DNA of 64,000 nt, taken from NCBI GenBank assembly GCA_963855995.1, contig OY979722.1, positions 6,418,001 to 6,482,000 of the forward strand. The letters are read 5' to 3'. This stretch comes from Muricea muricata. Its lineage: Eukaryota > Cnidaria > Anthozoa > Malacalcyonacea > Plexauridae. The translations under genes and the position numbers were made by a program. Shown here in pieces: positions 14,290 to 46,523 of the stretch. Each line of letters begins with the position of its first letter. Positions within the stretch are counted from its first letter, which is position 1. Under the pieces are notes generated by a model. It did no database searches. It saw nothing but the letters and a program-made list of their open reading frames with translations, and was not told the DNA's origin.

Positions 14290-15871
14290 AGGTCGGGAAT
14301 TTTCGAGTTAAGCCCTTCGAGTTAAGCCCCTCGAGTTAAGCCCTTTTCGAGTTAAGCCCCGACCACGCCCTTTTATCTCCCGACCACGCCCTTTTCCAAA
14401 AAGGGCTTAACTCGAACAACGAAACATGATTTGGGTCATTCGAGTTAAGCCCCGGGGCGTAAAAAATTCCTCTTGCTCGAGTTAAGCCCCGACTTGTGAA
14501 GTATGCCAAAGAGTGAAACATTAAATTGTCAGATTTTTAATGCAAATAAGCCAAAACAGAAATTTCACCCGAAAAGAACTAATAAATCGCTAATGGAACA
14601 TGATTATTAACTATTATATCGTTAGCACTATTATTTTAGATTTTTCATACATTTAATCACACTTCCGATATTGGGCGTAAGCATCGAATAGTTGCTTCGC
14701 ACATCTCCCAATAGAAAACTAACGAAGAGTTTAAAAACTCCAATCCAAAACGATCCATTATACTAAAAAACCGACTTGAGCTATTAAAAGCTAAATAGAT
14801 TCACAAGAGATTATTTGATAAAAAGCATACAACTTGACTCAGTTGAACGTACGTATTAACGCATGCAGCGAAATATCACGGGGAAAAATTTTACATTTGG
14901 GTATTTTACTTAAACTCGATCGAGTCTGTCGGAATCTTTGAAGTTTGTGCCATGCAGGCGGACTGCATTCGATTTCAAGCTGGCGGAATAAATCATATTT
15001 TCCGATACAAGTATTCGCTTAAATGAACAGCAAAGCATAGGAAAAACTTCAGCTATACTAAGCAAAAGGAATCTTTTAACAAACTAGCACTATTCAAACT
15101 AGCACTAGTTTCATTGCAAGCATGGTATATTCAAATTTCAAAAACAATTGTGATAACACTCAATAAACTGACAAAGATTTAGCTAATAAAATTAGCTGTA
15201 CATGTAAATTTACGCTGCGTATGAAGGCGCGAGTCTCAAAGACAGATATTCTATACCAAAATTCCTCCCTTTTCCTTTAGCTATTACGTGCATGCTGTTA
15301 TTTTCGATTATTTCTTGAATAGGTTAGTTTTGTTCAAGGTGACGGGAAAGGGTTCCACCTTTTCTTTCACACTAACATGACGGTAAGATGAACATTGTAA
15401 CGCGCGCGCGCGCAAACAGGGTGTACAAACGTCAGGTTCTATGTACTTTATAGTTAAAATATTGTTTTGTTGTTTTGTTATGTGGATAAACGAACCATTA
15501 AATGTATGAAAAACCTAAAATAATAGTGTTAACGATATAATAGTTAATTGATAATCATGTTCATAAGCGATTTATTAGTTTTCTTGGGGTAAAATTGCTG
15601 TGTTTCGGCTTAATATTTGCATTAAAAATTTGACAATTTAATGTTTCACTCTTTGGCATACTTCACAAGTCGGTGCTTAACTCAAGCAAGAAGATTTTTT
15701 CAAACGTCGAGTTAAGCCCCGGGGCTTAACTCGAATGACCCAAATCGTGTTTCGTTGTTCGAGTTAAGCCCTTTTTTGAAAAGGGCGTAATCGGGAGATA
15801 AAAGGGCGTGGTCGGGGCTTAACTCGAAAAGGGCTTAACTCGAAGGGCTTAACTCGAAGATTCCCGACCTC
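14290..15871. mobile_element. CGAGTTAAGCCC-repeat foldback transposon, copy 1
   Basis: A 1.58-kb non-autonomous element. Ends begin AGGTCGGGAA; the terminal inverted repeats run about 370 bp (14290-14655 and 15500-15871). The outer 200 bp of each holds several copies of CGAGTTAAGCCC in both orientations, with interposed CCCGACCACGCCCTTTT blocks. The roughly 850-bp interior is AT-rich with a short (GC)n run near 15402 and no gene. From 14707 inward it also belongs to the left arm of the giant palindrome. Confidence 0.85.
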
Positions 15872-16137
15872 CAAGCGTTTATCTGCCTAGCGTTTTTAAC
15901 AAATTCTTGGTTTTCACGTGACGTCATAAATTTCACTGGGGGTCAACTCGAAGTCGATACACAGTCATTGGAGGGATATAATTTTTCACTCTATGTGTTG
16001 ACCTTTTGTCTGGCAGCAAATATGTGCAATTTCGTGAGATTTGTTCACTCCAGTACACTATAATCATCAATAATTACATTTTGGGTTGACCCCCACTCAG
16101 ATTTACTGCAAAATGCCCTAGTGAAACCCAAGAATAT

Positions 16138-16620
16138 TTAAGCAATACAATACAATAAGATTTATTAGGTTCCCCGTAACGATCTTCATACCTAATTTAT
16201 ATGATAAGATATATAAAAAGAGATACAAATATACTGTTATTTACATGAATGTTTTGTATGGTTAATTTAGCCTACTGCTGAGCAGATAGCTTCTCAAGCT
16301 ATGTTTGAAAGTGTTTAGGTTGACAAATCACGGATCTCAGGAGACAGTGAGTTCCATAATGCTGCACCTTTATAGTAAAAGAATTTTTAGCCAGTGCTGA
16401 AGGCACTTAGCAAGATTAAGGTTATTAATGTTCCTGGTGTTATTATAGTCATGAATCTGAGATCTTTTCTGAAACATGTTCTTCAGGTAAGTAGGTGCTT
16501 GATTGCTCATACATTTAGACATCTGAACAGCATCTCTGAATCTGGAAGCATCAGTTTTACCGCAGTTCATAGTAACGAGTATGTGTTGGGCTCTGCAACA
16601 ATGAATGTTTGTATATAAAA
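16138..16620 (-). pseudogene. LINE 3' fragment (left arm copy)
   Basis: On the minus strand this encodes a C-terminal piece of a non-LTR reverse transcriptase polyprotein (APTYLKNMFQKRSQIHDY, then NINNLNLAK), with a frameshift after about LAKC. It continues into a 3' UTR ending in a TTGTA-type microsatellite near 16140. This matches the usual end of CR1/L2-like LINEs. The 5' part of the element is missing. The mirror copy is at 44619-45101. Confidence 0.65.
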
Positions 16621-18157
16621 GTACATATAGTTGTACAAATAAAAACACGTGGTGTATAAAAGCAGTTTTGTGATAAAGAAATAATGGCAGAAAAGGTGAT
16701 TGGTTGATCAATCACGGTAGCATTTCGAGGCATGTGTTTGTTTCATTACACTCGTCTTGAAATCGATGGTTATCGTCGATACCCATTGAGGCAGGAAATA
16801 TTTTTAAGCATTACCTTTGAGGGAACTACTTTGAAATTAAAAATAACAGCCTCGTAAACCAATTGTCCTTGTAGTTCATTGGCAATACAATTTAAGCAAT
16901 TTTTACCATAATACGGATTACCTGAGAGGTTAGCCTTTACGAGCAATTTTTGACCAAAAATCCCAAGCGGTTGATTGGCCTTATTAGCTCAGTACTTCAC
17001 TTTTTTGTTGAAAAAGTAAATTAAGGCTAAGTAAACACATTGGACAATTCATAGTTTCAGTGAAAGAAAATCAAGATACTGCCCTGGATGAGACCCAATT
17101 AGGGACCATTTACCATTCGTTTCACCACCAGGCACTTACCCCTCCCCCCTCCCGTCGCCCTTGGGCTTTTTTCTCATTAGTTGCTCGGGCTTCGCCGACT
17201 TGCTGGCGTGCTTGCTCGTCGTATTTGCTCGTCGGCAGTTCGGACAGCGCCAATTACAAATTCAACAATTTTGTCTAGAATGGCGTACAGAAAGTTTTCA
17301 AGATATTCGAAGCAATCCAACCAATCCTGCCTTTATTTCAAGGTAATATGCTTTCCTTTCTATCAGAAGTTGTAGACGAGTATCTAGACCTATGATATAG
17401 ATTAATTGTTAGGACAATCAGGGTGGATTTAGTGAAATATTTGAGCATAAAAAGTTTGTATTTTGCATGTGTGAAAATCATATTTGGTGTTCCTATGGTC
17501 AAATATGGTTTCCTATCATTCCGAAATATAACCCCTAGTTTAAATGAAATCTACTGTTAGTTTTTGTTTGTTAGTACTAGTAAGACAACTAATTAGGACT
17601 GCATAACAATCCCAATGAAAATTGTGGTTTTTCAGCTGTAATGTTGCAAATTAAACATAATTATTTCGATTCCCTTTTTCCATTGATCTGAAAGAACCAA
17701 GTAACTTAAATTTAATAGTGGATTCTGATAATAAGAAGTAGATCCATACTTTTCTCCTTCTGAGAATTCTAAGTCAACTAAAGGTATCCTGTTAAATATT
17801 TTCTTTCTGCCAATCTCCATCCCTATTACTTATTTCTCAATCAAGTTAATAGCTAAATTGCTTTTCATCACAATGTGTACATACCGTAGTAAAGTACTTC
17901 ATTTCCTTTTTGCCTGTAAATATTTGAATATGATAAATAAATTCAGCCCTCTAAAATGAGGTTGGCATTCAACAATGCTGACCTAAATGCCGACCTATTG
18001 ACCTAGGATTAACCAACCTAGGTTGGATTTAGGTATGAATTTTTTGCTAACCTGAATTTTGATGGTTTTTGAGTGCTTGTAAACTTGATTTTTCATTACT
18101 TACCCCACCCCTCCTTGTTGGTTTAATTCTCGGTAGGGTCTCAATGTGATTCAAATA
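16621..18157. other. Arm sequence without an assigned gene
   Basis: At 17281 an ATG opens a basic 21-codon segment (MAYRKFSRYSKQ...) that ends in a possible donor CAAG|GTAATA at about 17341. It could be a first exon of a lost gene, but no second exon is found. The rest is AT-rich; around 17990-18030 is a short CCTAGG-centred inverted repeat. Confidence 0.35.
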
Positions 18158-18428
18158 CTGAATCTAATACTGAACAGGTCTGCCCCTGAAGCTTGTCCTC
18201 ATGAAAAGAGTACAAGTTGTTGCTCTGCCCAATATTGTCGGCTTTCTCCAGGTACTCTGGTTCCTCCCACAGGAAAACTTGACTGTTTTAGCTTAGGTAA
18301 TATGGCAAGACAGCCATTGGTATGCATTGTTGAGGTGAGCCTGCCCATGAGCAGTGGCATAGCCAGGATCTCCTCTCAAGGGAGGCCCAAAAACCCAGGG
18401 GCAGACCTGTTTTAGTATTAGATTCAGT
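18158..18428. mobile_element. Foldback MITE with SINE-like core
   Basis: Ends GAATCTAATACTGAACAGGT and CAGGGGCAGACCTG..ATTAGATTC form about 28-bp inverted repeats. The interior contains a CTCCAGGTACTCTGGTTCCT block, related to the TACTCCGGTTT segment common in animal tRNA-derived SINE tails. The mirror copy is at 42808-43078. Confidence 0.6.
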
Positions 18429-18429
18429 A

Positions 18430-21400
18430 ATAGATTGGCAGTTTTCTCAGCAGCAATCCTGCCACGGGGAGACAGGCCCCTGGGCCTCTCTCTGGCTAGG
18501 CCAAGCTTAGTAATATATGCTGTAATTCAATCGTGTCTGGTCAAGTGTTAATTAACTTATCATATATTTTGACATTTTTTAGATCTACAGCGCTTTGAAA
18601 GTTTGATGAATGCTTATCCAGCAGGTCCTCAAGTGAACACTGTTGATGAAAAGTGCATAGAAGGTCTTGATATTTTTATGTTTTATTTCACATTGAAATG
18701 CTTTGAGTAGCATACATGATTTTCCAGAATTACTGGCTGTGTTTATGTTTTGAAAAAAAATATTTTTATCTATCACCAAAAATATGGCAAGAAAGACAGT
18801 TTTGAACGTCAAAATTATTTCATCATTCAACAGCAAGTGGGACAGTATAACTTAGAAATACCAGTTTTATTCTCACCTTATTTGATTATCATTTTAAGCA
18901 ACTTCTGATCATAAAAGTTGTATGTGCTCAAAGCATTTTAATCTCAGAAAAAGTCAAATAATGTTGAACTGTGTTTTGTGATTTGAATTTGTCTACAGAA
19001 TCATGTTTCTGTTTGGTCTAGTACTTGATATGAAAGACACATGCAAAAGGCTTTAAAATGTTTAAGTCATCAAATCCTAGGACTGGATGTCTCATTTAAA
19101 TATCTCATTTGACTCTTGTCTTTGCTGGTTTGCTAATATCAGTAAAGGTGCTAGTATCAGTAAATTGTGGGGTTTTTTGAAAAAGGTTATGCCCTTTTGA
19201 GTTTGGCATTATTTGACTTTGTAATGTACTACTGTACTTTGTTATGTTTACAAAAGAATTGAGGTGGTTTTATCAGAAACAAAATATTTATTATCATTTT
19301 ATTATTTTTGTATCTCAGTTTATCGACAAACTCAGTCTATTCACAGAAAATTTGTTTCTGCAAGAACATAAAAAAACGGTCATAATTTTTCATTAATTCA
19401 ATGAAAAAGCATTTAAAAAATATTTTGTTTCCAGGCTTGCCATCTCAATCTTCTTTTGTTCAAGTCGACTTCGAGCATTCATTTGAAAATCTGAAAAGTT
19501 CATTTAAAAATCACAACAGTTCTAGATGTTATCGGAGCATAATTTGAATATTTTTTGATGTAATTTGAAAATCCTTTGCAGTACAAAACCCCTAAAAGTT
19601 AAAAAATACTTGGTATTGTTTCATTGTACTGTACTTCACCTTCAAAACAGAATTTGTGATTTTGTAAACAGAACTTTCCTCCTTTAAGATGAACTGCTTA
19701 AGGTCAAAAGCTTGTTGCTTTATTGCAAAGTGGAACTTGTTTGGAATTGAATTGAACTGAAGCAGTTAAACATACTTTATTTTGAGGTCAATGCTGATTG
19801 GTAAGAGTTAAAAAAAAGGAAAAATGGGCAACCAGATTTTTTAGGCTCTGTTTTGCACTATTCCAAATGAAGGATGTGAAAAGTATATAAGAATTTTAGT
19901 AGAAATTTGGTAAAATTAAATGCAAGTTTTTTGTTACTATTTCATCAGAGCAACAGTATTTTATGAAATCAACAGGTAGCTGTGATCCCAGATTTGCACA
20001 GATAAACAAGAAGCATGGAAGTCTAAGATTTTATTGCAAATGTTTGGCATTGATACCGAACTGATACAAAGAGATCTGTATCAGACAGAAATCTGCATAC
20101 GATACAGACTTAAAACAATTACAAATCAAGTTAAGTATTTTGATGGTATTAGGCAATTTCAGGTCTTGCTTATTTCTTAACATAAGAAATTTATTTTGCT
20201 GAACATCAAGTCTTCAAGTAAAATGGTCTTGCATTAGGTGGAGAAAAATAATATAAATTAGTTCCGATTTGATAACAGTTTGGTTTTTATGATTATAAGA
20301 TATTTTCTTTAACTTTCAAAACATTTTTCTGTGAACTTTTCATATTGTGTGGTTGTGGTGAATTTGTGTTTTTATGTATACATTCCATTTGCTCCAGTTC
20401 AAGCTTGCTTTTCAAATAGTTCCACTTTGTAAATGTAGTTAAGTAATAATAATATAAGAAAACAGGTTTACATGGCATTTAAGCATGGTCTTTTCAACAA
20501 GTAAGTAAAGATAAATTTATACTTCAAAGAGATTTGTTTTTAACCTGACAGTGACACCTTCCAATCAATCATTAAAACATTTCTTTCAACTAGATTTTAT
20601 CTTTTCAATGTAAGATCAGTCTTGTATATTTCGACTTTTGGTTTGATTTTTATCACTAAAACTACCAAAGGAAGTGTTTTGTTCCATTGAAAGTTATTTT
20701 AATGATTTTGATTATTAAAAAGTTGTGATGAATGAAAAATGTCCACTGTTGAGCCACTCCAATAATAGCAAGGCAGCCAAAGCGTTGTTCTTCATCTTTT
20801 TTTAAATGCGGGAGCTTTTTCTCAAGAAAAAATAGTGTTCGGAGTAATATAAAGGCAAAGAAACAAAGTTAGCACTGTCTAATAAATTTGACACTCTCAG
20901 GTTAAAAACACAATCAGAAAAAATATATGGCTCTAAAAGTTCAAGTTGTCTCCCTTTCGAATTTGCTATTCCTTCATAAAAAAGGAATAATTTCTGCGTG
21001 CTTTTAGACATTTGGAAGAGTTTTTCCAGTTGCAATAAAATATTTTCACTATTTGCTTCCTTTACCTGCCAGAAAGACATCAAATTAGTCGGTAGTTTGT
21101 GCAATTTTTGTCTGAACGATATAAAAAAAAACCTCAATGAAATCCTATCTTTCTATTGGCAAAAGCGCTTTTTACCTCCTGAAAGTCGTAGGTTCCTCCG
21201 GGTACTCCGGTTTCTTCTCGCAAGGAATATTGACAGGGTTGTTTAGATCATAAAAACATGACTAACACTTGATAACCTTTCCAACTGTAACAGTAGGCTT
21301 TTCCTGTCCACCACAAATTTTTAAAAAAATGAAAAACTCTCATAAAAAACATCTCTTTGATGAACTAAATGCAACTATGAGCCATGTATTTTCTTTGTAA

Positions 21401-21790
21401 TTGTGAAACGGCGTGGTGTTTATATTAGATGATTTCTCTTTCAAATTGGGAAAATCACTTTAATCACTTCCAGTTGTTTCATAATTATTTATATCTTGAA
21501 GTATAAACGTTTATCTTGAAGAGACCAAGTTTTCTCAACATTGCGTTTTCACTTGTGTTTATTCGTTTGTGTTAAGTGCAATGTTGTCAGTTGTTCTCGT
21601 TCTGCCATGTTCTGTTTTCTTCTATTGTTCTTTGAAATAAGTACAATGTGTGATAGTTAATCTCTTTTTATTGTTATTCAAATTGTAACCTTTACAAATT
21701 CTTTTCAATAAATTGTTTACAAAATTTACATCTGACCCTTTTTAATTAAAAATTCAATTCCCATGGGAATTGAGAAATTGAATAAAAAAA
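18430..21790. other. AT-rich arm sequence, no clear gene
   Basis: No recognised family. The minus-strand frame 20802-21137 (111 codons) reads identically over its last 100 codons in the other arm (40124-40426), but it is not preserved in the older third copy, so I do not call it a gene. A SINE-tail-like CTCCGGGTACTCCGGTTTC block is at about 21195-21213. Confidence 0.4.
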
Positions 21791-21796
21791 TCCCCC

Positions 21797-21912
21797 TACC
21801 CCGGCCAGCTCCCCAAGTGCTACTTCCACCTAAGTAGAAGTACTTGTACATATATTCCAAGTACTTCTACTTAATTGCGGTGGAAGTAGCACTCGGAGAG
21901 CTGGCCGGGGTA
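21797..21912. repeat. 116-bp GC-rich hairpin (left arm)
   Basis: Arms begin TACCCCGGCCAGCTCCCCAA and end in the complement, about 50 bp each, with a short AT loop near 21850-21858. The same hairpin occurs at 39317-39432 and, with substitutions, at 51780-51895, always 116 bp long. A second hairpin follows directly at 21925-21963 (AAGATCAACCTTGC / GCAAAGTTGATCTT). Confidence 0.85.
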
Positions 21913-21924
21913 GCCGGCGAAGAG

Positions 21925-21963
21925 AAGATCAACCTTGCTAATGCAAATTGCAAAGTTGATCTT
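21925..21963. repeat. Second small hairpin next to the 116-bp hairpin
   Basis: 14-bp arms around an 11-bp loop. Retained in the other arm, and in the third copy with changes near 51911-51953. Confidence 0.6.
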
Positions 21964-21965
21964 CC

Positions 21966-22169
21966 CTAGAGAGCAGCCGCGCATACCTAGCAAATTAAAA
22001 CAACAAACGTTAGTGACTTAAGTACTTAGCATGCAAATTTGATTCCCAAAGCCAAAATGACAAGTTCCCCCCTCTGATCCTACCAACTGCCTACCTGCCT
22101 CAGCTCTAAGCTGTCTTCCTCGGTCCTAAACTCCTGCACTCCATTCGTTACCCTCACTTTCCTCACCAT
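21966..22169 (-). CDS. Possible two-exon microprotein (31 codons), left arm copy
   Basis: Minus strand: ATG at 22169 and 25 codons to CAG at 22095, with a donor GTAGGC. The acceptor TTTGCTAG ends at 21987, then exon 2 (21986-21966) reads six codons and TAG. The predicted peptide is charged, then hydrophobic (VCAAAL) at the end. It reads open in all three copies of the unit with the same splice sites. Between left arm and third copy, exon 1 has four changes in 75 nt (three conservative replacements, one silent) and exon 2 two, both silent. The neighbouring intron is also well conserved, so selection is not proven. No family recognised. Confidence 0.3.
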
Positions 22170-24170
22170 CGCACAGTCACTCTCAGCTGATAAACCGCAT
22201 GCACCGCCACCACCCCGACTGCCACCCAAATTCGAAAATTAAAAGAATTGAAATTTCGGTAAAGTATGCGTAGTGAATGTTTATTTTTTCGGATATTTTA
22301 GGTCAAACGTAAACAGAAAATGTCGAAGGTTCTATATACAAACAGGTGAGCGCCAGCTACTTGTCTTGATACACGAAACTAACAAATTCCAAAATATACA
22401 AAACTTAATGGCATGCACACTAATGAAAATTTTAGTTAAAATAATATATTAATGCTGATAATTTAGCTGTGATGACGGTAGATTTTAGTTGAAGCATACT
22501 TTCAAAAATTTTAATTCCTTTAATAAGCCTAACCCCATGCAACTTACACACGGCGCACACCCTCACAGTCCATACATTTAGCTAATAAATTGCGTTATAA
22601 ACAAAAAAAGCAAAATAAAAAGATAAATTACGTTATCTCTAGCTACTTAAACCCACTTAGACTGAGTATTTGATTGAGTTTCAAGACGTAAAACCTTAGC
22701 TGAAAGGGCATGGGCTTTTCGTTGTGTTTACTGATACGAAGTAAATATAAGCCTAATACTTACCAAAATCTAAGGCTGGGTCAAATAAGCATGAGAATGC
22801 AAAGAGTATAAATAATTTGAAAACGCGAAACGCAACTTGGGTTTTTTCATAGAAGGCCTTATCTATAGGAATATGTAAATTCTAAACTGTTTAGTACAGT
22901 TATTCTTACTAAATAGTTTAAAGGGTCAATATGTTTTAAAATTTGACCGCAATTCTCATACTTATTTAACCGAAACGCCTTCTCATTTGCATGGTACCTC
23001 GCAGCTGCTCTCAAACCACTTCCGTAATTATTGGTTTTAGTGCACACAAACAATGGTTTTATTGTTCCATTGTTCCTGCTTACCAAGCAAACCAAAAACC
23101 CGGAAGCACCAAGATACTTATCGTATTCATAATCAAAGAGGATTCTCACCATGAATTTAAGTATTACCGTGAAAACAAAGCAAGCAGTATTCCCATGGGA
23201 ATTCAAAATGCAAAAAACGCATTGATGATTCAAATTAACAGAGAAATATACAAATATTATATTCCCCTGGGAATTAGAATAAAAATATCTTGATTCCTCG
23301 TTATTTTAAACATATGATCTTAGAATAATTTAATTCAATCTCAATTTTTAAGTCAATTTTTTGCTTTTCTTTCACAACGCGAAACAATAATTTTGTTCAA
23401 CGAGAAACAATAGAATTTATTAAATCCTCTTTGATCTCTCAATAAGTATCTTGTTTTCTACTAACTTACATTTGTATAACTTCCAATACTTTCGTATTAG
23501 CAATGTCTAGCTTGCTTTCGCATTCTTGTGGGTTTTTATTCTTTTGTCGGTCTATATCTTTCAGCATCCTTCATTCTGGTCTTTTCTTCTTGAATTTCGT
23601 TACATCTTATCACCTAATAATATTGATTGTAGACAACGATTATAGAAATTCATTAGCTGTTGTATAAAGCTGTTCTAAAAAGGAGTAAACTAAAAAGGAA
23701 ACGGTTTGCTTTATTTAACGTAGTTGTGAATCATTTTCAACATCAAACAAAAAACTGTTTCTGTTAACATGCAAAATTTGACGGTAATTTTCGTCAAGTA
23801 TTCATGCCAACTATTTCATAAGATTGAATCGTTTTCATTTAAAGGTTCCAAGGTTAGGGGTATACCCGACAAAACAGCTTCGTGTTGACCCATTGAACCT
23901 GCAACGACAAATCCAGGTAAAAGCGTTTGGGTGAAGAATGAGGTTCATCAAACATTATTATTATTTATTGAAAATTTTTCAGGAGTTTTGATTGGTTAAG
24001 AGCTAAAGGTGAAATCGTCATATCCGCAAATTTGGGGTTGAAAATAAATATACGAGATTATAAGTCATTTCGTCGTATATTTAAAACAAATATACGACAT
24101 TATGACTCATTTCGTCGTATATTAACTGACCTTGTAATCTGACAATTGAAAACAACTGAAAAGTAATGAA
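22170..24170. other. Arm sequence without an assigned gene
   Basis: AT-rich. The 124-codon minus-strand frame 22859-23233 is altered by indels in both other copies and is not called. Short repeats of TACGAC/GTCGTATAT lie at 24045-24125 in both orientations. Confidence 0.4.
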
Positions 24171-24176
24171 ACAATT

Positions 24177-24312
24177 ATTGAATTCAGTTCTCGCAGGATA
24201 TGAGGAATTATTAAGGCCTCGGTTTGTGTTATCTGCCTCAGGCTTCGGCAGACAACACAAACCTCTGCCTAAATAATTCCTCATATCCTGCTCGACCTCA
24301 TTTAATAATTGT
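24177..24312. mobile_element. Palindromic MITE
   Basis: About 60-bp arms (TCTCGCAGGATATGAGGAAT..GGTTTGTGTTATCTGCC and complement) around a 9-bp loop TCAGGCTTC. The mirror copy is at 36912-37047. Confidence 0.8.
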
Positions 24313-25012
24313 TTAATGTTGTGAACAGTTTACCATCATTTTCTCAAGCTATTTCCTTTCTCAAAAAGAAACCAAGATGTAAGTCCATAAATTATAACAT
24401 CACTTTTTAAATCAAAGTGTAGACACTAAATCTCGGTACATTCCTGCACATGGTGTCAACCGCGCCAACAAGAAGTAATAGAGAGGGACTGACAATTGAA
24501 CGTCAATTTATCTCAGCCCCCCCCCCCCCCCCGGACATGTTGCGCGCCTCTGCGTGTGAAGCCTAGTTTCATTTTGGTCGTAACTATCGTAGTAAAGTCA
24601 TTCTCGACGATGTGATATAGTCTGGATCTAACTTTTCTTTTGTGGGCTGTATTCAAATTAGTTTTAGTATAATTTCTTTAGTAAATAATGGTTTTCAAGC
24701 ATTTTGATTGGTTGCCTGACCAGTAAATATGAGGCAATATTTACTAGTTGGCATTTTTTCAAAATAGTCGCCAATGAGAGTCGTTTTGATGTATTATACT
24801 TTTGCCAAAATTAGCAAATGGAGAAAAGTTACATTAATATAAACTCAAAGAATACAAACAAAGTTGGTGTTAAACTATCTTAAGTAATAGATCGTTTGCA
24901 AATACCTTATTAAATACTTTTTTCACTTTTTAAAAATTACAAGTAAACTTAAGTCTTTACTTAGGAATTTTCAGAAGTAAACTGTGTTTATAAAAGACGA
25001 CAGTGCATTTTA

Positions 25013-26716
25013 AAGTGTTACTTTCCCCGATATTTGGAAAAAGGGCAAGATTATTCCCCTCTACAAATCGAACGATCCAACATCACCAAATAACTACAGA
25101 CCTATAACTATTCTGCCAATCTTAAGTAAAATAATGGAGCGCATAGTTCACAGGCAAGTTTACAATTACTTGGAGGGACAAAATTCCATCACTGCGGAAC
25201 AATTCGGATTTCGGCCTAAGTTATCCACGAACATTGCCCTTACACAGCTATCCGAAGAAATACTGCAAAACCTCGATAACAAGTTGGTCACCGGTGCTGT
25301 TTTTATTGACTTGCGAAAGGCATTTGACACAGTAGATCACGAACTGCTAATCTTAAAGTTACAAAATCTCGGATTTTCAACTTCAGTTGTCAACTGGTTT
25401 CGCTCATATTTATCATCACGTACAGCAGTTACATCTATCAACAACATGTCTTCAGATCCAAAATCAGTTACTGTAGGTGTACCACAAGGTAGCATATTGG
25501 GTCCACTTCTATTCTTGTTGTACATTAATGATTTGCCTCAGTGCCTCAACCATTGTAAGTCAATTCTGTATGCTGATGACACCTTACTGTACTACTCTGG
25601 GAAAACAGTGGCTGATCTTCAATTAAAGATTAACACTGATTTAGAATCACTTTCGCAGTGGCTCAATAACAACCTTCTTACCTTAAACTACGAAAAAACG
25701 AAGTTCATGATCTTTGCCAATAAGAAACCGACACCATCGCTTTCTGATGTTACAATCACTGTCCAGAATCATAAAGTACTACGCGAGAAATCAATTACAT
25801 ATCTCGGAATAACACTCAGTGAAGATTTCTCCTGGCACGAACATATTGACAACATGATTGCAAAAATTAATCAAAGACTAGGAATACTAAAGCGCATCAA
25901 TCATTGTTTGGATTTAAACACGCGTTGTATTATTTACACATCGCTGATTCTACCATTGTTTGATTATGCCGACACCATATGGGGTGATAAGAACAATTCT
26001 GTACTAATGGATTCCCTACAAACCCTGGAAAACAAAGCTGCTAAAATGATACTTGATGAACACCCACGGTCTTCCGCAACAGACGCATTAAAACGACTTA
26101 ATTGGACAACTCTAGCAACAAGACGTCATAACCACAGATGCATTTTCGTTTATAAATGTATCAACGAATTAATTAACTTTAAATTTAACCTAATCAAGAA
26201 TGAAAATGTACACAACTACAACACAAGGAGAAGTAATGACCTGCACTTACCAAGAGCGAACACCAACAAAGGCAAACAAAGACCTACATACCAAGCATCT
26301 ATAGATTTTAACAATCTGGATCAGAGAACTAAAAACGCTATTACATTGAAAAACTTTAAGGCTTGTTTAAAAAGAAACTCAAAATAGAAATAAGAGATAA
26401 TATCCAATTCTCTTTGTGCATGGTTTCCTATGGTTTGTGCATTATTGAAAGATTTCTATCTTTAGTTTCTTTTTGGGTTATAGCAGCGAGGGGATCTGGA
26501 CACTAGACCATTAATATATTAATATATATTATTATATTTATTATATCGTATAATCTCATATATATCATACTGTAATTGTATCGTACCGTGTCGTTTTGTA
26601 TTGTATCATACTGTATAGTATATATTTTTGTAAAATTTATTATTGGAGGACCCCACTGAAAAACACTTCGGTGATGTGGGTATCCTCGTAAAATATAATG
26701 ATAATAATAATAATAA
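25013..26716 (+). mobile_element. 5'-truncated LINE (non-LTR retrotransposon), left arm only
   Basis: The right arm has an uninterrupted site at the matching place (about 36211), which defines both edges. The copy lacks its endonuclease half, carries an open RT frame and ends in an (ATA)n-type microsatellite tail at about 26697-26716. Truncation at the 5' end and a microsatellite tail are typical of target-primed insertion. CR1/L2/jockey-like group; the clade is not certain. Confidence 0.9.
25014..26387 (+). CDS. Reverse transcriptase, 5'-truncated non-LTR element
   Basis: The frame is open from the insertion edge with no stop; the first internal Met is at 25134. RT blocks in order: NNYRPITILP, then EQFGFRPKLSTN, motif A FIDLRKAFDTVDHELL, GVPQGSILGPLLF, catalytic ILYADDTLLYY, and a thumb and C-terminal region with CLDLNTRCIIYTSLILPLFDY. 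The catalytic aspartates in motif A and YADD are present. It ends FKACLKRNSK. The endonuclease and ORF1 are absent, so it cannot move alone, though the enzyme core looks undamaged, which suggests a young insertion. Confidence 0.85.
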   Translation, partial: SVTFPDIWKKGKIIPLYKSNDPTSPNNYRPITILPILSKIMERIVHRQVYNYLEGQNSITAEQFGFRPKLSTNIALTQLSEEILQNLDNKLVTGAVFIDLRKAFDTVDHELLILKLQNLGFSTSVVNWFRSYLSSRTAVTSINNMSSDPKSVTVGVPQGSILGPLLFLLYINDLPQCLNHCKSILYADDTLLYYSGKTVADLQLKINTDLESLSQWLNNNLLTLNYEKTKFMIFANKKPTPSLSDVTITVQNHKVLREKSITYLGITLSEDFSWHEHIDNMIAKINQRLGILKRINHCLDLNTRCIIYTSLILPLFDYADTIWGDKNNSVLMDSLQTLENKAAKMILDEHPRSSATDALKRLNWTTLATRRHNHRCIFVYKCINELINFKFNLIKNENVHNYNTRRSNDLHLPRANTNKGKQRPTYQASIDFNNLDQRTKNAITLKNFKACLKRNSK

Positions 26717-27840: not shown

Positions 27841-27841
27841 A

Positions 27842-29096: not shown

Positions 29097-29109
29097 GAGA
29101 AGCTGAACA

Positions 29110-34984: not shown

Positions 34985-35089
34985 GAATAGCGTCATCCAT
35001 GCGCTTGGGATGTCGGCTTCGACTTGAGATTTTCTGAAGTTCAATATCTCCTAAAACATCCTAACATCACGCGTGCATGGATGACGCTA
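34985..35089. mobile_element. Short palindromic MITE (right arm)
   Basis: Mirror of 27842-27946. Confidence 0.75.
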
Positions 35090-36177
35090 TCTTGAACACA
35101 AAAAACTATTATTTTGTTACTTTCTTATTTTCTTATCAGTCACTTACGTGATCAAAATCTGTAACCCACATTGCGCAAAATTCGCTCAATCTTGGGCGTC
35201 CTTTTTGGGCTGCTAACGTTTTTTTTTTCTTTTTTTAATACATCTTGTGCGAGCTTGAATGCAATTATTATTCTTTCGCGACAGAACAACCAGCATTCGA
35301 CTGTTTATTAAAAATTCATGCAACTTCCCTTTAAAATTTAAAATAACTTTGACATATATTTGCCCGCCATGAACGACTTCAAATCCCGCCATTTTGTATT
35401 GCGTTGTTTTTTTTTGCACATTTGAACAAAGCGTAAAATAGTATTCCACAGAATTCTAAATATAGTTTTCCACATAATTCTAAGTATAATTTTTTTACAG
35501 GAAGAACGTACACCATAACTTAGTTTCTTTAAATACACCCCCCCCCCAACAGTAGACGTTTTCCCTCGTATCTAATGGAAATATTTCTCGTTTTTCAAAA
35601 GGACGTAAAAGGTGGTACGAAGAACCAACTAGAGATTGCGACATCGAACAACGAGTCAAGGCCTACATGCAAGTTTTAGAAATGTAAGTGTACAGCAAAA
35701 ATATTTGTGTCCAAATGTCAGTGGCGATTCTAATCGATTCAAATCTCGTGTTCCTCCGGGAAACTTCCAACGTAAAAGTCTAAATCAGTTTCAATATTAG
35801 ATTTGAAATGAACAAATATATTGATAGAGAGAATTCTGCATTCCCTACGAAGTAGCATACTTTAGTGATTCTATTTGTTAAATACAAACTACTTAGAAGA
35901 GTTTAAACTTTTACGGCGTGCACGTACGTGTAAAACACGGATAACTGGAAAGCAGCCTTAAAAATGCGCACTTTCAGCCTAGTTTCATGTGGTCGTGAAT
36001 GTTGTAAATACATGAAGGTGAGCGATGAGATTGAGCATGTGAGCTTTCTAGACTAGAGTATCTACACTTAATATTTAACAATTCTTCGCCGAAGGCGAAG
36101 TGATTATTGGTGAACATTCACCGAGAAAAAGTCGAGGTGAATATTTACCATAATCACTGAGCCTAAGGCGAATAATT

Positions 36178-36565
36178 GTTTTAGTATAATTTCTTTAGTA
36201 AAGTTTACGTGTATAAAATGCACTGTCGTCTTTTATAAACACAGTTTACTTCTGAAAATTCCTAAGTAAAGACTTAAGTTTACTTGTAATTTTTAAAAAG
36301 TGAAAAAAGTATTTAATAAGGTATTTGCAAACGATCTATTACTTAAGATAGTTTAACACCAACTTTGTTTGTATTCTTTGAGTTTATATTAATGTAACTT
36401 TTCTCCATTTGCTAATTTTGGCAAAAGTATAATACATCAAAACGACTCTCATTGGCGACTATTTTGAAAAAATGCCAACTAGTAAATATTGCCTCATATT
36501 TACTGGTCAGGCAACCAATCAAAATGCTTGAAAACCATTATTTACTAAAGAAATTATACTAAAAC
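36178..36565. mobile_element. 388-bp MITE, empty site for the LINE
   Basis: Uninterrupted copy of the MITE at 24661-26752. It shows the pre-insertion sequence at about 36211 where the left arm holds the LINE. Confidence 0.9.
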
Positions 36566-36911
36566 TAATTTGAATACAGCCCACAAAAGAAAAGTTAGAT
36601 CCAGACTATATCACATCGTCGAGAATGACTTTACTACGATAGTTACGACCAAAATGAAACTAGGCTTCACACGCAGAGGCGCGCAACATGTCCGGGGGGG
36701 GGGGGGGCTGAGATAAATTGACGTTCAATTGTCAGTCCCTCTCTATTACTTCTTGTTGGCGCGGTTGACACCATGTGCAGGAATGTACCGAGATTTAGTG
36801 TCTACACTTTGATTTAAAAAGTGATGTTATAATTTATGGACTTACATCTTGGTTTCTTTTTGAGAAAGGAAATAGCTTGAGAAAATGATGGTAAACTGTT
36901 CACAACATTAA

Positions 36912-37047
36912 ACAATTATTAAATGAGGTCGAGCAGGATATGAGGAATTATTTAGGCAGAGGTTTGTGTTGTCTGCCGAAGCCTGAGGCAGATAACACAA
37001 ACCGAGGCCTTAATAATTCCTCATATCCTGCGAGAACTGAATTCAAT
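36912..37047. mobile_element. Palindromic MITE (right arm)
   Basis: Mirror of 24177-24312. Confidence 0.8.
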
Positions 37048-39059
37048 AATTGTTTCATTACTTTTCAGTTGTTTTCAATTGTCAGATTACAAGGTCAGTT
37101 AATATACGACGAAATGAGTCATAATGTCGTATATTTGTTTTAAATATACGACGAAATGACTTATAATCTCGTATATTTATTTTCAACCCCAAATTTGGGC
37201 AACTACCATGCGGATATGACGATTTCACCTTTAGCTCTTAACCAATCAAAACTCCTGAAAAATTTTCAATAAATAATAATAATGTTTGATGAACCTCATT
37301 CTTCACCCAAACGCTTTTACCTGGATTTGTCGTTGCAGTGTTTCATAGAGTTCAATGGGTCAACACGAAGCTGTTTTGTCCGGTATACCCCTAACCTTGG
37401 AACCTTTAAATGAAAACGATTCAATCTTATGAAATAGTTGGCATGAATACTTGACGAAAATTACCGTCAAATTTTGCATGTTAACAGAAACAGTTTTTTG
37501 TTTGATGTTGAAAATGATTCACAACTACGTTAAATAAAGCAAACCGTTTCCTTTTTAGTTTAATGAATTTCTATAATCGTTGTCTACAATCAATATTATT
37601 AGGTGATAAGATGTAACGAAATTCAAGAAGAAAAGACCAGAATGAAGGATGCTGAAAGATATAGACCGACAAAAGAATAAAAACCCACAAGAATGCGAAA
37701 GCAAGCTAGACATTGCTAATACGAAAGTATTGGAAGTTATACAAATGTAAGTTAGTAGAAAACAAGATACTTATTGAGAGATCAAAGAGGATTTAATAAA
37801 TTCTATTGTTTCTCGTTGAACAAAATTATTGTTTCGCGTTGTGAATGAAAAGCAAAAAATTGACTTAAAAATTGAGATTGAATTAAATTATTCTAAGATC
37901 ATATGTTTAAAATAACGAGGATTCAAAATATTTTTATTCTAATTCCCAGGGGAATATAATATTTGTATATTTCTCTGTTAATTTGAATCATCAATGCGTT
38001 TTTTGCATTTTGAATTCCCATGGGAATACTGCTTGCTTTGTTTTCACGGTAATACTTAAATTCATGGTGAGACTTAATTTATATGAGAATCCTCTTTGAT
38101 TATGAATACGATAAGTATCTTGGTGCTTCCGGGTTTTTGGTTTGCTTGGTAAGCAGGAACAATGGAACAATAAAACCATTGTTTGTGTGCACTAAAACCA
38201 ATTACGGAAGTGGTTTGAGAGCAGCCGCGAGGTACCATGCAAATGAGAAGGCGTTTCGGTTAAATAAGTATGAGAATTGCGGTCAAATTTTAAAACATAT
38301 TGACCCTTTAAACTATTTAGTAAGAATAACTGTACTAAACAGTTTAGAATTTACATATTCCTATAGATAAGGCCTTCTATGAAAAAACCCAAGTTGCGTT
38401 TCGCGTTTTCAAATTATTTATACTCTTTGCATTCTCATGCTTATTTGACCCAGCCTTAGATTTTGGTAAGTATTAGGCTTATATTTACTTCGTATCAGCA
38501 AACACAACGAAAAGCCCATGCCCTTTCAGCTAAGGTTTTACGTCTTGAAACTCAATCAAATACTCAGTCTAAGTGGGTTTAAGTAGCTAGAGATAACGTA
38601 ATTTATCTTTTTATTTTGCTTTTTTTGTTTATAACGTAATTTATTAGCTAAATGTATGGACTGTGAGGGTGTGCGCCGTGTGTAAGTTGCATGGGGTTAG
38701 GCTTATTAAAGGAATTAAAATTTTTGAAAGTATGCTTCAACTAAAATCTACCGTCATCACAGCTAAATTATCAGCATTAATATATTATTTTAACTAAAAT
38801 TTTCATTAGTGTGCATGCCATTAAGTTTTGTATATTTTGGAATTTGTTAGTTTCGTGTATCAAGACAAGTAGCTGGCGCTCACCTGTTTGTATATAGAAC
38901 CTTCGACCTTTTCTGTTTACGTTTGACCTAAAATATCCGAAAAAATAAACATTCACTACGCATACTTTACCGAAATTTCAATTCTTTTGATTTTCGAATT
39001 TGGGTGGCAGTCGGGGTGGTGGCGGTGCATGCGGTTTATCAGCTGAGAGTGACTGTGCG

Positions 39060-39263
39060 ATGGTGAGGAAAGTGAGGCTAACGAATGGAGTGCAGGAGTT
39101 TAGGACCGAGGAAGACAGCTTAGAGCTGAGGCAGGTAGGCAGTTGGTAGGATCAGAGGGGGGAACTTGTCATTTTGGCTTTGGGAATCAAATTTGCATGC
39201 TAAGTACTTAAGTCACTAACGTTTGTTGTTTTAATTTGCTAGGTATGCGCGGCTGCTCTCTAG
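39060..39263 (+). CDS. Possible two-exon microprotein, right arm copy
   Basis: Exon 1 39060-39134 and exon 2 39243-39263, with the same splice sites and length as 21966-22169. One codon differs (Val to Leu at residue 7). The same doubts apply: no family and no proof of expression. Confidence 0.3.
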
Positions 39264-39316
39264 GGAAGATCAACTTTGCAATTTGCATTAGCAAGGTTGA
39301 TCTTCTCTTCGCCGGC

Positions 39317-39432
39317 TACCCCGGCCAGCTCTCCGAGTGCTACTTCCACCGCAATTAAGTAGAAGTACTTGGAATATATGTACAAGTACTTCTACTTAGG
39401 TGGAAGTAGCACTTGGGGAGCTGGCCGGGGTA
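39317..39432. repeat. 116-bp GC-rich hairpin (right arm)
   Basis: Mirror of 21797-21912, with the second small hairpin alongside at about 39266-39304. Confidence 0.85.
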
Positions 39433-42400
39433 GGGGGATTTTTTTATTCAATTTCTCAATTCCCATGGGAATTGAATTTTTAATTAAAAAGGGTCACATG
39501 TAAATTTTGTAAACAATTTATTGAAAAGAATTTGTAAAGGTTACAATTTGAATAACAATAAAAAGAGATTAACTATCACACATTGTACTTATTTCAAATA
39601 ACAATAGAAGAAAACAGAACATGGCAGAAAGAGAACAACTGACAACATTGCACTTAACACAAACGAATAAACACAAGTGAAAACGCAATGTTGAGAAAAC
39701 TTGGTCTCTTCAAGATAAATGTTTATACTTCAAGATATAAATAATTATGAAACAACTGGAAGTGATTAAAGTGATTTTCCCAATTTGAAAGAGAAATCAT
39801 CTAATATAAACACCACGCCGTTTCACAATTACAAAGAAAATACATGGCTCATAGTTGCATTTAGTTCATCAAAGAGATGTTTTTTATGAGAGTTTTTCAT
39901 TTTTTTAAAAATTTGTGGTGGACGGGAAAAGCCTACTGTTACAGTCGGAAAGGTTATCAAGTGTTAGTCATGTTTTTATGATCTAAACAACCCTGTCAAT
40001 ATTCCTTGCGGGAAGAAACCGGAGTACCCGGAGGAACCTACGACTTTCAGGAGGTAAAAAGCGCTTTTGCCAATAGAAAGATAGGATTTCATTGAGGTTT
40101 TTTTTATATCGTTCAGACAAAAATTGCACAAACTACCGACTAATTTGATGTCTTTCTGGCAGGTAAAGGAAGCAAATAGTGAAAATATTTTATTGCAACT
40201 GGAAAAACTCTTCCAAATGTCTAAAAGCACGCAGAAATTATTCCTTTTTTATGAAGGAATAGCAAATTCGAAAGGGAGACAACTTGAACTTTTAGAGCCA
40301 TATATTTTTTCTGATTGTGTTTTTAACCTGAGAGTGTCAAATTTATTAGACAGTGCTAACTTTGTTTCTTTGCCTTTATATTACTCCGAACACTATTTTT
40401 TCTTGAGAAAAAGCTCCCGCATTTAAAAAAAGATGAAGAACAACGCTTTGGCTGCCTTGCTATTATTGGAGTGGCTCAACAGTGGACATTTTTCATTCAT
40501 CACAACTTTTAATAATCAAAATCATTAAAATAACTTTCAATGGAACAAAACACTTCCTTTGGTAGTTTTAGTGATAAAAATCAAACCAAAAGTCGAAATA
40601 TACAAGACTGATCTTACATTGAAAAGATAAAATCTAGTTGAAAGAAATGTTTTAATGATTGATTGGAAGGTGTCACTGTCAGGTTAAAAACAAATCTCTT
40701 TGAAGTATAAATTTATCTTTACTTACTTGTTGAAAAGACCATGTTTAAATGCCATGTAAACCTGTTTTCTTATATTATTATTACTTAACTACATTTACAA
40801 AGTGGAACTATTTGAAAAGCAAGCTTGAACTGGAGCAAATGGAATGTATACATAAAAACACAAATTCACCACAACCACACAATATGAAAAGTTCACAGAA
40901 AAATGTTTTGAAAGTTAAAGAAAATATCTTATAATCATAAAAACCAAACTGTTATCAAATCGGAACTAATTTATATTATTTTTCTCCACCTAATGCAAGA
41001 CCATTTTACTTGTTAATACAGAAGACTTGATGTTCAGCAAAATAAATTTCTTATGTCAAGAAATAAGCAAGACCTGAAATTGCCTAATACCATCAAAATA
41101 CTTAACTTGATTTGTAATTGTTTTAAGTCTGTATCGTATGCAGATTTCTGTCTGATACAGATCTCTTTGTATCAGTTGGGTATCAATGCCAAACATTTGC
41201 AATAAAATCTTAGACTTCCATGCTTCTTGTTTATCTGTGCAAATATGGGATCACAGCTACCTGTTGATTTCATAAAATACTGTTGCTCTGATGAAATAGT
41301 AACAAAAAACTTGCATTTAATTTTATCAAATTTCTACTAAAATTCTTATATACTTTTCACATCCTTCATTTGGCATAGTGCAAAACAGAGCCTAAAAAAT
41401 CTGGTTGCCCATTTTTCCTTTTTTTTAACTCTTACCAATCAGCATTGACCTCAAAATAAAGTATGTTTAACTGCTTCAGTTCAATTCAATTCCAAACAAG
41501 TTCCACTTTGCAATAAAGCAACAAGCTTTTGACCTTAAGCAGTTCATCTTAAAGGAGGAAAGTTCTGTTTACAAAATCACAAATTCTGTTTTGAAGGTGA
41601 AGTACAGTACAATGAAACAATACCAAGTATTTTTTAACTTTTAGGGGTTTTGTACTGCAAAGGATTTTCAAATTACATCAAAAAATATTCAAATTATGCT
41701 CCGATAACATCTAGAACTGTTGTGATTTTTAAATGAACTTTTCAGACTTTCAAATGAATGCTCGAAGTCGACTTGAACAAAAGAAGATTGAGATGGCAAG
41801 CCTGGAAACAAAATATTTTTTAAATGCTTTTTCATTGAATTGATGAAAAATTATGACCGTTTTTTTATGTTCTTGCAGAAACAAATTTTCTGTGAATAGA
41901 CTGAGTTTGTCGATAAACTGAGATACAAAAATAATAAAATGATAATAAATATTTTGTTTCTGATAAAACCACCTCAATTCTTTTGTAAACATAACAAAGT
42001 ACAGAAGTACATTACAAAGTCAAATAATGCCAAACTCAAAAGGGCATAACCTTTTTCAAAAAACCCCACAATTTACTGATATTAGCACCTTTACTGATAT
42101 TAGCAAGCCAGCAAAAACAAGAGTCAAATGAGATATTTAAATGAGACATCCAGTCCTAGGATTTGATGACTTAAACATTTTAAAGCCTTTTGCATGTGTT
42201 TTTCATATCAAGTACTAGACCAAACAGAAACATGATTCTGTAGACAAATTCAAATCACAAAACACAGTTCAACATTATTTGACTTTTTCTGAGATTAAAA
42301 TGCTTTGAGCACATACAACTTTTATGATCAGAAGTTGCTTAAAATGATAATCAAATAAGGTGAGAATAAAACTGGTATTTCTAAGTTATACTGTCCCACT

Positions 42401-42807
42401 TGCTGTTGAATGATGAAATAATTTTGACGTTCAAAACTGTCTTTCTTGCCATATTTTTGGTGATAGATAAAAATATTTTTTTTCAAAACATAAACACAGC
42501 CAGTAATTCTGGAAAATCATGTATGCTACTCAAAGCATTTCAATGTGAAATAAAACATAAAAATATCAAGACCTTCTATGCACTTTTCATCAACAGTGTT
42601 CACTTGAGGACCTGCTGGATAAGCATTCATCAAACTTTCAAAGCGCTGTAGATCTAAAAAATGTCAAAATATATGATAAGTTAATTAACACTTGACCAGA
42701 CACAATTGAATTACAGCATATATTATTAAGCTTGGCCTAGCCAGAGAGAGGCCCAGGGGCCTGTCTCCCCATGGCAGGATTGCTGCTGAGAAAACTGCAT
42801 ATCTATT

Positions 42808-43078
42808 ACTGAATCTAATACTAAAACAGGTCTGCCCCTGGGTTTTTGGGCCTCCCTTGAGAGGAGATCCTGGCTATGCCACTGCTCATGGGCAGGCTCA
42901 CCTCAACAATACATACCAATGGCTGTCTTGCCATATTACCTAAGCTAAAACAGTCAAGTTTTCCTGTGGGAGGAACCAGAGTACCTGGAGAAAGCTGACA
43001 ATATTGGGCAGAGCAACAACTTGTACTCTTTTCATGAGGACAAGCTCCAGGGGCAGACCTGCTTCAGTATTAGATTCA
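42808..43078. mobile_element. Foldback MITE with SINE-like core (right arm)
   Basis: Mirror of 18158-18428, with minor substitutions. Confidence 0.6.
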
Positions 43079-44618
43079 GTATTTGAATCACATTGAGACC
43101 CTACCGAGAATTAAACCAACAAGGAGGGGTGGGGTAAGTAATGAAAAATCAAGTTTACAAGCACTCAAAAACCATCAAAATTCAGGTTAGCAAAAAATTC
43201 ATACCTAAATCCAACCTAGGTTGGTTAATCCTAGGTCAATAGGTCGGCATTTAGGTCAGCATTGTTGAATGCCAACCTCATTTTAGAGGGCTGAATTTAT
43301 TTATCATATTCAAATATTTACAGGCAAAAAGGAAATGAAGTACTTTACTACGGTATGTACACATTGTGATGAAAAGCAATTTAGCTATTAACTTGATTGA
43401 GAAATAAGTAATAGGGATGGAGATTGGCAGAAAGAAAATATTTAACAGGATACCTTTAGTTGACTTAGAATTCTTAGATAGGAGAAAAGTATGGATCTAC
43501 TTCTTATTATCAGAATCCACTATTAAATTTAAGTTACTTGGTTCTTTCAGATCAATGGAAAAAGGGAATCGAAATAATTATGTTTAATTTGCAACATTAC
43601 AGCTGAAAAACCACAATTTTCATTGGGATTGTTATGCAGTCCTAATTAGTTGTCTTACTAGTACTAACAAACAAAAAACTAACAGTAGATTTCATTTAAA
43701 CTAGGGGTTATATTTTGGAATGATAGGAAACCATATTTGACCATAGGAACACCAAATATGATTTTCACACATGCAAAATACAAACTTTTTATGCTCAAAT
43801 ATTTCACTAAATCCACCCTGATTGTCCTAACAATTAATCTATATCATAGGTCTAGATACTCGTCTACAACTTCTGATAGAAAGGAAAGCATATTACCTTG
43901 AAATAAAGGCAGGATTGGTTGGATTGCTTCGAATATCTTGAAGACTTTCTGTACGCCATTCTAGACAAAATTGTTGAATTTGCAATTGGCGCTGTCCGAA
44001 CTGCCGACGAGCAAATACGACGAGCAAGCACGCCAGCAAGTCGGCGAAGCCCGAGCAACTAATGAGAAAAAAGCCCAAGGGCGACGGGAGGGGGGAGGGG
44101 TAAGTGCCTGGTGGTGAAACGAATGGTAAATGGTCCCTAATTGGGTCTCATCCAGGGCAGTATCTTGATTTTCTTTCACTGAAACTATGAATTGTCCAAT
44201 GTGTTTACTTAGCCTTAATTTACTTCTTCAACAAAAAAGTGAAGTACTGAGCTAATAAGGCCAATCAACCGCTTGGGATTTTTGGTCAAAAATTGCTCGT
44301 AAAGGCTAACCTCTCAGGTAATCCGTATTATGGTAAAAATTGCTTAAATTGTCTTGCCAATGAACTACAAGGACAATTGGTTTACGAGGCTGTTATTTTT
44401 AATTTCAAAGTAGTTCCCTCAAAGGTAATGCTTAAAAATATTTCCTGCCTCAATGGGTATCGACGATAACCATCGATTTCAAGACGAGTGTAATGAAACA
44501 AACACATGCCTCGAAATGCTACCGTGATTGATCAACCAATCACCTTTTCTGCCATTATTTCTTTATCACAAAACTGCTTTTATACACCACGTGTTTTTAT
44601 TTGTACAACTATATGTAC

Positions 44619-45101
44619 TTTTATATACAAACATTCATTGTTACAGAGCCCAACACATACTCGTTACTATGAACTGTGGTAAAACTGATGCTTCCAGATT
44701 CAGAGATGCTGTTCAGATGTCTAAATGTATGAGCAATCAAGCACCTACTTACCTGAAGAACATGTTTCAGAAAAGATCTCAGATTCATGACTATAATAAC
44801 ACCAGGAACATTAATAACCTTAATCTTGCTAAGTGCCTTCAGCACTGGCTAAAAATTCTTTTACTACAAAGGTGCAGCATTATGGAACTCACTGTCTCCT
44901 GAGATCCGTGATTTGTCAACCTAAACACTTTCAAACATAGCTTGAGAAGCTATCTGCTCAGCAGTAGGCTAAATTAACCATACAAAACATTCATGTAAAT
45001 AACAGTATATTTGTATCTCTTTTTATATATTTTATCATATAAATTAGGTATGAAGATCGTTACGGGGAACCTAATAAATCTTATTGTATTGTATTGCTTA
45101 A
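44619..45101 (+). pseudogene. LINE 3' fragment (right arm copy)
   Basis: Mirror of 16138-16620. Here the frame runs on the plus strand and shows the same C-terminal RT-polyprotein residues and TTGTA-type tail. The shared truncation means this fragment was present before the arms were duplicated. Confidence 0.65.
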
Positions 45102-45368
45102 ATATTCTTGGGTTTCACTAGGGCATTTTGCAGTAAATCTGAGTGGGGATCAACCCAAAATGTAATTATTGATGATTATAGTGTACTGGAGTGAACAAAT
45201 CTCACGAAATTGCACATATTTGCTGCCAGACAAAAGGTCAACACATACAGTGAAAAATTATATCCCTCCAATGACTGTGTATCGACTTTGAGTTGACCCC
45301 CAGTGAAATTTATGACGTCACGGGAAAACCAAGAATTTGTTAAAAACGCTAGGCAGATAAACGCTTGG

Positions 45369-46523
45369 AGGTCGGGAATCTTCGAGTTAAGCCCTTCGAG
45401 TTAAGCCCTTTTCGAGTTAAGCCCCGACCACGCCCTTTTATCTCCCGATTACGCCCTTTTCAAAAAAGGGCTTAACTCGAACAACGAAACACGATTTGGG
45501 TCATTCGAGTTAAGCCCCGGGGCTTAACTCGACGTTTGAAAAAATCTTCTTGCTTGAGTTAAGCACCGACTTGTGAAGTATGCCAAAGAGTGAAACATTA
45601 AATTGTCAAATTTTTAATGCAAATATTAAGCCAAAACACAGCAATTTTACCCCAAGAAAACTAATAAATCGCTTATGAACATGATTATCAATTAACTATT
45701 ATATCGTTAACACTATTATTTTAGGTTTTTCATACATTTAATGGTTCATTTATCCACATAACAAAACAACAAAACAATATTTTAACTATAAAGTACATAG
45801 AACCTGACGTTTGTACACCCTGTTTGCGCGCGCGCGCTACAATGTTCATCTTACCGTCATGTTAGTGTGAAAGAAAAGGTGGAACCCTTTCCCGTCACCT
45901 TGAACAAAACTAACCTATTCATGAAATAATCGAAAATAACAGCATGCACGTAATAGCTAAAGGAAAAGGGAGGAATTTTGGTATAGAATATCTGTCTTTG
46001 AGACTCGCGCCTTCATACGCAGCGTAAATTTACATGTACAGCTAATTTTATTAGCTAAATCTTTGTCAGTTTATTGAGTGTTATCACAATTGTTTTTGAA
46101 ATTTGAATATACCATGCTTGCAATGAAACTAGTGCTAGCTTGAATAGTGCTAGTTTGTTAAAAGATTCCTTTTGCTTAGTATAGCTGAAGTTTTTCCTAG
46201 GCTTTGCTGTTTATTTAAGCGAATACTTGTGTCGGAAAATATGATGTATTCCGCCGGCTTGAAATCGAATGCAGTACGCCTGCATGGCACAAACTTCAAA
46301 GATTCCGACAGACTCGATCGAGTTTAAGTAAAACACCCAAATGTAACAATTTTTCCCATTTCGCTGCATGCGTTACGTACGTTCAACTGAGTCAAGTTGT
46401 ATGCTTTTTATTAAATAATCTCTTGTGAATCTATCTAGCTTTTGGTAGCTCAAGTCGGTTTTTTAGTATAATGGGTCGTTTTGGATTGGAGTTTTTGAAC
46501 TCTTTGTTAGTTTTCAATTGGGA
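45369..46523. mobile_element. CGAGTTAAGCCC foldback transposon, copy 2, truncated
   Basis: Mirror of the inner part of copy 1. It loses homology at about 46523, inside the element, so its far terminal repeat is missing. Confidence 0.8.

Follow-up and report, generated by a model that had tools for sequence, protein, structure and literature searches.

A palindrome of about 34 kb in the genome of Muricea muricata, probably formed by fold-back inverted duplication of a knot-ended repeat

Work on large palindromes is difficult because the unfolded precursor has usually disappeared. The closest described rearrangements are the human fold-back inverted duplications, which according to Hermetz et al. 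2014 (PMC3907307) carry 2-8 bp of inverted microhomology in 13 of 21 junctions and repeats at some; these duplications are terminal, large and taken from patients, and their spacers span 766-70,466 bp. In yeast, diverged and spaced inverted repeats were described to start inverted duplications (Ait Saada et al. 2023, PMC10164571), the duplicated stretches being ~24 or ~100 kb long and ending near repeats such as Ty1. The ODIRA and tandem inverted duplication models, as outlined in PMC4689423 and PMC10766186, combine short interrupted inverted repeats at forks with a template switch and an interstitial outcome. For the human Y palindrome P8, birth at 5 bp of microhomology was reported (PMC6790999).

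The palindrome described here lies in a stretch of 64,000 nucleotides of Muricea muricata (the window; contig OY979722.1, here C7, positions 6418001-6482000). It was compared with 453 Mb in 74 contigs, all genome-wide comparisons being made within this one assembly, and because the best 33-40 candidates were scored per genome search, copy numbers are lower bounds. Like the human duplications as described in PMC3907307, the window palindrome has an unduplicated spacer, and a 2-bp overlap at its join may correspond to their short inverted microhomology; unlike those, it is interstitial, with arms of ~15 kb, and several cases of different ages occur in one repeat family. The yeast system presented in PMC10164571 involved engineered repeats, a mutant with long single-stranded DNA and a subsequent translocation, whereas the present set is natural. 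ODIRA-type models in the form given in PMC4689423 and PMC10766186 yield inverted triplications, but no age-matched third copy lies beside the window palindrome. Large arms, here probably homogenised in part, are shared with the sex-chromosome palindromes treated in PMC6790999, whereas the arms found here hold no recognised gene, occur on several contigs and are tied to one dispersed repeat. The foldback-type transposons Galileo, Tetris and Tm1, as far as described, are likewise dispersed and have an inverted-repeat structure linked to rearrangement; here, in contrast, the unit itself lacks symmetry and most relatives examined are lopsided. Our verdict is that of an unusual natural set of an already known rearrangement type. 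No report of a repeat family that repeatedly seeds palindromes was found in the open-licence literature, which does not prove its absence in print.

Self-comparison of the window placed the palindrome arms at 14706-31312 and 31617-46523, with a spacer of 304 bp between them (31313-31616). The inverted matches were 98.72% over 8979 bases (14706-23655 with 37561-46523), 98.0% over 1351 (23686-25012 with 36214-37562) and 99.89% over 4599 (26716-31312 with 31617-36214). Chance cannot account for matches of thousands of bases at E = 0, and the presence of the palindrome in the sequence is confirmed. End-to-end alignment of both arms gave 94 difference events, including one insertion of ~1.7 kb found in the left arm only. 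This insertion (25013-26715, plus strand) is a LINE with reverse transcriptase (RVT_1, E 4.9e-40), the empty site of which is kept in the right arm; inspection by eye revealed no clear target-site duplication there. Substitutions between the arms numbered 54 in 8,557 bases of the outer part (15099-23655) versus 3 in 5,923 aligned bases of the inner part (23656-31312, plus strand; Fisher P = 1.8e-9). Later conversion from arm to arm probably homogenised the inner arms, which would explain this step in divergence. The sequence-only reading had described a palindrome of about 32 kb with a 304-bp spacer, very few indels and an almost identical inner part, and had stated that none of the transposons inside explains it as a single element; all of these statements hold. 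Its limits (14707..46523) fit the strict mirror, but symmetry continues to 14289 and 48465.

The outer ends lie in a transposon of 1.57 kb with inverted ends of ~364 bp, full-length relatives of which were found on C16 and C4 (93%). The left transposon (14289-15859, plus strand) is a mosaic of two right-side copies. From 15099 inward it differs from the right-arm piece at 3 positions in 735; at 14706-15098, 19 of 385 positions differ from that piece and 5 from a second right-side copy (46915-48465, minus strand), and out to 14289 the difference to this second copy stays near 1% (outer ~800 bases). The symmetric region therefore runs from 14289 to 48465, about 34 kb. Its left arm (14289-31312, plus strand) includes the transposon and the LINE; its right arm (31617-48465, minus strand) is a strict mirror to 46523, followed by extra transposon pieces and then the second copy, so that the right side carries ~1.5 kb of extra transposon DNA. 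Judged from the mosaic, the end of the copied arm appears to have been made by homology within the transposon. Beyond both transposon ends (14289 and 48465) the flanks are unrelated. When 3001-14289 was compared with 48466-64000, the only inverted match was one of 120 bp (84%; 12983-13101 with 49788-49902), located at nearly mirrored places, which may be a dispersed repeat; no further inverted match between left and right flank was obtained at E 1e-20 in the whole window. Elsewhere, on C11, two copies of this transposon share a gap and lie in opposite directions 46 kb apart (11518712-11520073 and 11566019-11567381); they are maybe another inverted duplication.

The arm itself is a dispersed repeat. 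Among the best candidates, relatives of 26700-31200 were found on C2, C3, C5, C7, C13 and C15, those of 15860-20360 on C5 and other contigs, and those of 20361-25010 also on C4, C10, C12 and C16. The best conserved part of the family arm, the core, occupies 29600-31312 (plus strand) with its mirror at about 31617-33330. In a tally made by eye from the 40 best candidates, 24 of 32 listed loci had the core on one side only and 8 had both arms; at 0.513-0.518 Mb of C5 the core was listed on both strands. No Pfam family matched any of the six frames of the right arm at an E-value threshold of 1, while other ORFs of the window gave RVT_1 and an integrase as positive control. No ORF conserved among the core copies was found, and scanning the window for tRNA genes and Rfam families gave 0 hits each; short or unfamiliar exons in the arms are possible. 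Insertions common to both window arms are missing at the same place in the C5 copies. Both arms contain a short, high-copy dispersed repeat (15903-16136, plus strand) and a second dispersed repeat (16155-16554, plus strand), the latter absent at the corresponding place of the C5 copies. A stop of C5 homology at the element end at 16555 was considered and rejected, as the C5 copies continue past this position.

On the right flank, outside the palindrome, the left arm recurs in direct orientation as a diverged copy with interruptions (50341-63540, plus strand). Among the best 40 candidates for 62310-63540, the nearest relatives were nearly all on C3 (2-58 Mb), with C6 contributing some and C2 one; the palindrome arm was nearest to C5 copies, also among the best 40 candidates. 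Judged from these matches, the repeat subfamilies look chromosome-enriched. On C16, the window part 20.9-23.0 kb has at least seven relatives at 3.56-4.36 Mb, all on the minus strand and irregularly spaced by ~55-235 kb. Two relatives in opposite directions and with equal scores, ~49 kb apart, were seen at C3:19879751-19930700 and may represent an inverted duplication with its turning point at the outer end.

Small inverted repeats form a knot at the inner end of the arm. It is composed of a stem s (31083-31312, plus strand) and a loop L, which is the 304-bp spacer (31313-31616, plus strand) and in the family context belongs to the left side. The stem adjoining the right arm (31617-31846, minus strand) is identical to the left one; both are of the long-arm type, and the short-side stem described below is absent from the window. 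In relatives, the knot contains further s and L pieces on both strands. Among the best 40 candidates of a genome search with s and L, at least 37 loci were listed; they are spread over eight contigs, and C5 holds 17. Knot pieces were on both strands in 30 of the 37 listed loci; this tally used 86 of the 114 listed pieces, 28 short, weak loop pieces being omitted, and counting the discounted weak loop piece C6:12382957 would give 31 of 37. Closer comparison revealed both strands in three of the other seven loci as well (C13:5.04, C3:27.36 and C5:17.53; positions in Mb).

Around the knot, 9 of 15 relatives examined were lopsided, consisting of a long arm, the knot and a short old stub (C5:13.46, 16.54, 16.77 and 17.53; three on C2; C3:27.36; C13:5.04); the other 6 were symmetric (C5:17.41 and 17.46; two on C13; C3:40.38; C4:15.38). 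In the lopsided loci the short side stops after 0.2-1.8 kb, and old, diverged stubs were present in every one examined. Because the stubs of C5:13.46 and C5:17.53 reach 1.2-1.8 kb, some long-lived symmetry is old. Stub ends, examined as a possible transposon end, cluster near 30720-30750 in some loci without coinciding at one sharp position. In all nine lopsided loci, the short-side s was 94.5-99.5% identical to the short-side s of another locus (best of 7 or 8), versus 82.9-93.2% to its long-side partner at the same locus. The outer s copies of symmetric loci were 97.6-100% alike in 6 of 6 tested, a set that includes the window and excludes C4. In the stem tree, the A/B split had a support of 0.724. 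When modelled as a hypothetical single strand, the lopsided centre of C5:17.53 was predicted to form one long hairpin of -385.8 kcal/mol, a value calculated without shuffled control.

All four relatives compared across the window turning point continue unturned (the left half of C5:17.41, C5:17.53, C5:16.54 and C5:13.46), these being relatives elsewhere in the genome and not alleles. The overlap at the join is TG (31617-31618), a microhomology of 2 bp, and 2 bp or more occur in 7% of random 304-bp spacers. In the two C5 palindromes (17.41 and 17.46 Mb) the turning point lies elsewhere, inside the stub, with a spacer of 52 bp that is exactly inverted between the two loci and a microhomology of 1 bp (by eye). 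This turning point is crossed unturned by both lopsided relatives compared, C5:17.53 and C5:16.54, which are 97.6% and 93.5% alike up to there. In the core tree, the nearest relative of the window is the lopsided C5:13.46 (support 0.996), whereas the C5 palindromes group with C5:17.53 and C5:16.54 (0.993), apart from the window. Given the differing turning points and this grouping, two separate foldings are the simplest history.

The remaining palindromes have other centres. The C13 palindrome has a spacer of ~350 bp. An unbroken match of 1,788 bases to the lopsided C2:23.82 covers its right arm, its spacer and part of its left side; as C13 turns inside the repeat stem, its turning point is not sharp. 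Spacers of ~346 bp (C3) and 561 bp (C4) likewise belong to centres that differ from that of the window, and no relative crossing the C3 or C4 centre cleanly was found. Arm likeness was 98.0% and 99.4% in the C5 pair, 96-97% in C3, ~92% in C13 and 97-98.5% in C4. In the tree of the two duplicated C13 palindromes, left arms group together and so do right arms; thus no conversion between the C13 arms has taken place since the locus was duplicated. From these sequence comparisons we infer that fold-back copying occurred independently at least twice and probably five times. Since unturned relatives survive beside palindromes of several apparent ages, the birth of a palindrome, its turning point, healing and homogenisation can be read from the sequence.

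The explanation we favour, with a probability of roughly 0.7, is fold-back inverted duplication of the knot-ended repeat unit, recurring at other members of the family. An unduplicated spacer lies between the inverted copies both in the window (304 bp) and in the C5 pair (52 bp), and the unrearranged form crosses the turning point in relatives (4 of 4 and 2 of 2, respectively). We infer the direction and order of events, with fold-back or template-switch synthesis and conversion as the cause of the divergence step, to be as follows. The starting state would have been a long non-coding arm A, a knot of s and L pieces and a short, old and diverged stub. Having passed s and L, synthesis would have jumped at the end of L to a point 304 bases back on the opposite strand, using the 2-bp microhomology. 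Outward copying of ~15 kb of arm A would then have replaced the stub and produced A-s-L-s'-A'. Homology inside the 1.57-kb transposon would have resolved the copy, because of which symmetry stops at the transposon ends. Conversion between the arms would later have homogenised the inner 6-7 kb, and the LINE would have entered the left arm. Other members of the family would have undergone separate events of this type, turning at different points.

Several points count against fold-back copying. The microhomologies are only 2 bp (window) and 1 bp (C5), the support of the A/B stem split is only 0.724, and the 120-bp inverted match of the outer flanks sits at nearly mirrored places. The old symmetry indicated by the stubs of C5:13.46 and C5:17.53, the blurred turning point of C13 and the lack of a relative cleanly crossing the C3 or C4 centre weigh on the same side. 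Copying primed by the inverted repeat also predicts that the old stem of C13 is more diverged than the arms, which is not clearly so; a clear difference had been suggested at first and was rejected on remeasurement. It is unlikely, in our estimate, that the repeat was ancestrally a full palindrome, the lopsided loci having lost most of one arm while conversion kept the arms of the survivors alike. The old stubs in every lopsided locus examined would agree with such an ancestry, and the divergence step together with the exactly inverted C5 spacer fits recombination between arms. Conversion, however, leaves a turning point fixed, yet the centres of the window, C5 and C13 differ, lopsided relatives carry unturned sequence across those centres, the stub stems are orthologous among loci, and the C13 arms went without conversion after locus duplication. 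Alternatively, a deletion of ~1.7 kb in a palindrome with another centre could have produced the centre seen in the window.

That a giant foldback-type transposon inserted as a ready-made palindrome with inverted ends of ~15 kb appears highly improbable. Although the family is dispersed over many contigs, as expected of such an element, the core is on one side only in 24 of the 32 loci listed among the 40 best candidates, lopsided loci read through the turning points of both the window and C5, both window arms hold locus-specific insertions, and the six-frame Pfam search of the right arm gave no protein. An assembly artefact, either a fold-back read or the head-to-head join of two haplotypes about which the sequence-only reading had cautioned, is very unlikely for the window palindrome on these comparisons. 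The divergence between the arms is within the reach of two haplotypes, but a LINE in one arm only is impossible for a single folded molecule, and in a haplotype join the outer flank should recur on both sides, whereas the flanks are unrelated except for the 120 bp. Moreover, the centre coincides with the knot of the family, and the same assembly holds differently centred palindromes of the family on C13, C3 and C4, whose arms are older (92-98% alike). These results speak against the earlier caution.

A wider form of fold-back duplication is doubtful. The repeat family would act as a heritable seeder of palindromes, its knot folding repeatedly in the germline into palindromes of tens of kb, their outer ends healed by copying into transposons elsewhere and the events also joining different chromosomes and spreading the family. 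This wider form predicts that the left arm of the window is nearest to C5 and the arm copy on the right flank nearest to C3, which was observed and is not proof. If true, germline seeding of palindromes by a dispersed repeat, outside recognised genes, would link the fragility of inverted repeats in the laboratory with natural genome evolution.

Apart from the palindrome, the window contains two arrays of a 20-bp repeat (1-210 and 8455-8793), mutually inverted and ~85% alike. An ORF on the minus strand at 5905-7056 encodes an integrase core domain (rva_4, E 1e-28), and 55551-58631 is a long ORF, which we take to resemble the polyprotein of a gypsy-type retrotransposon.
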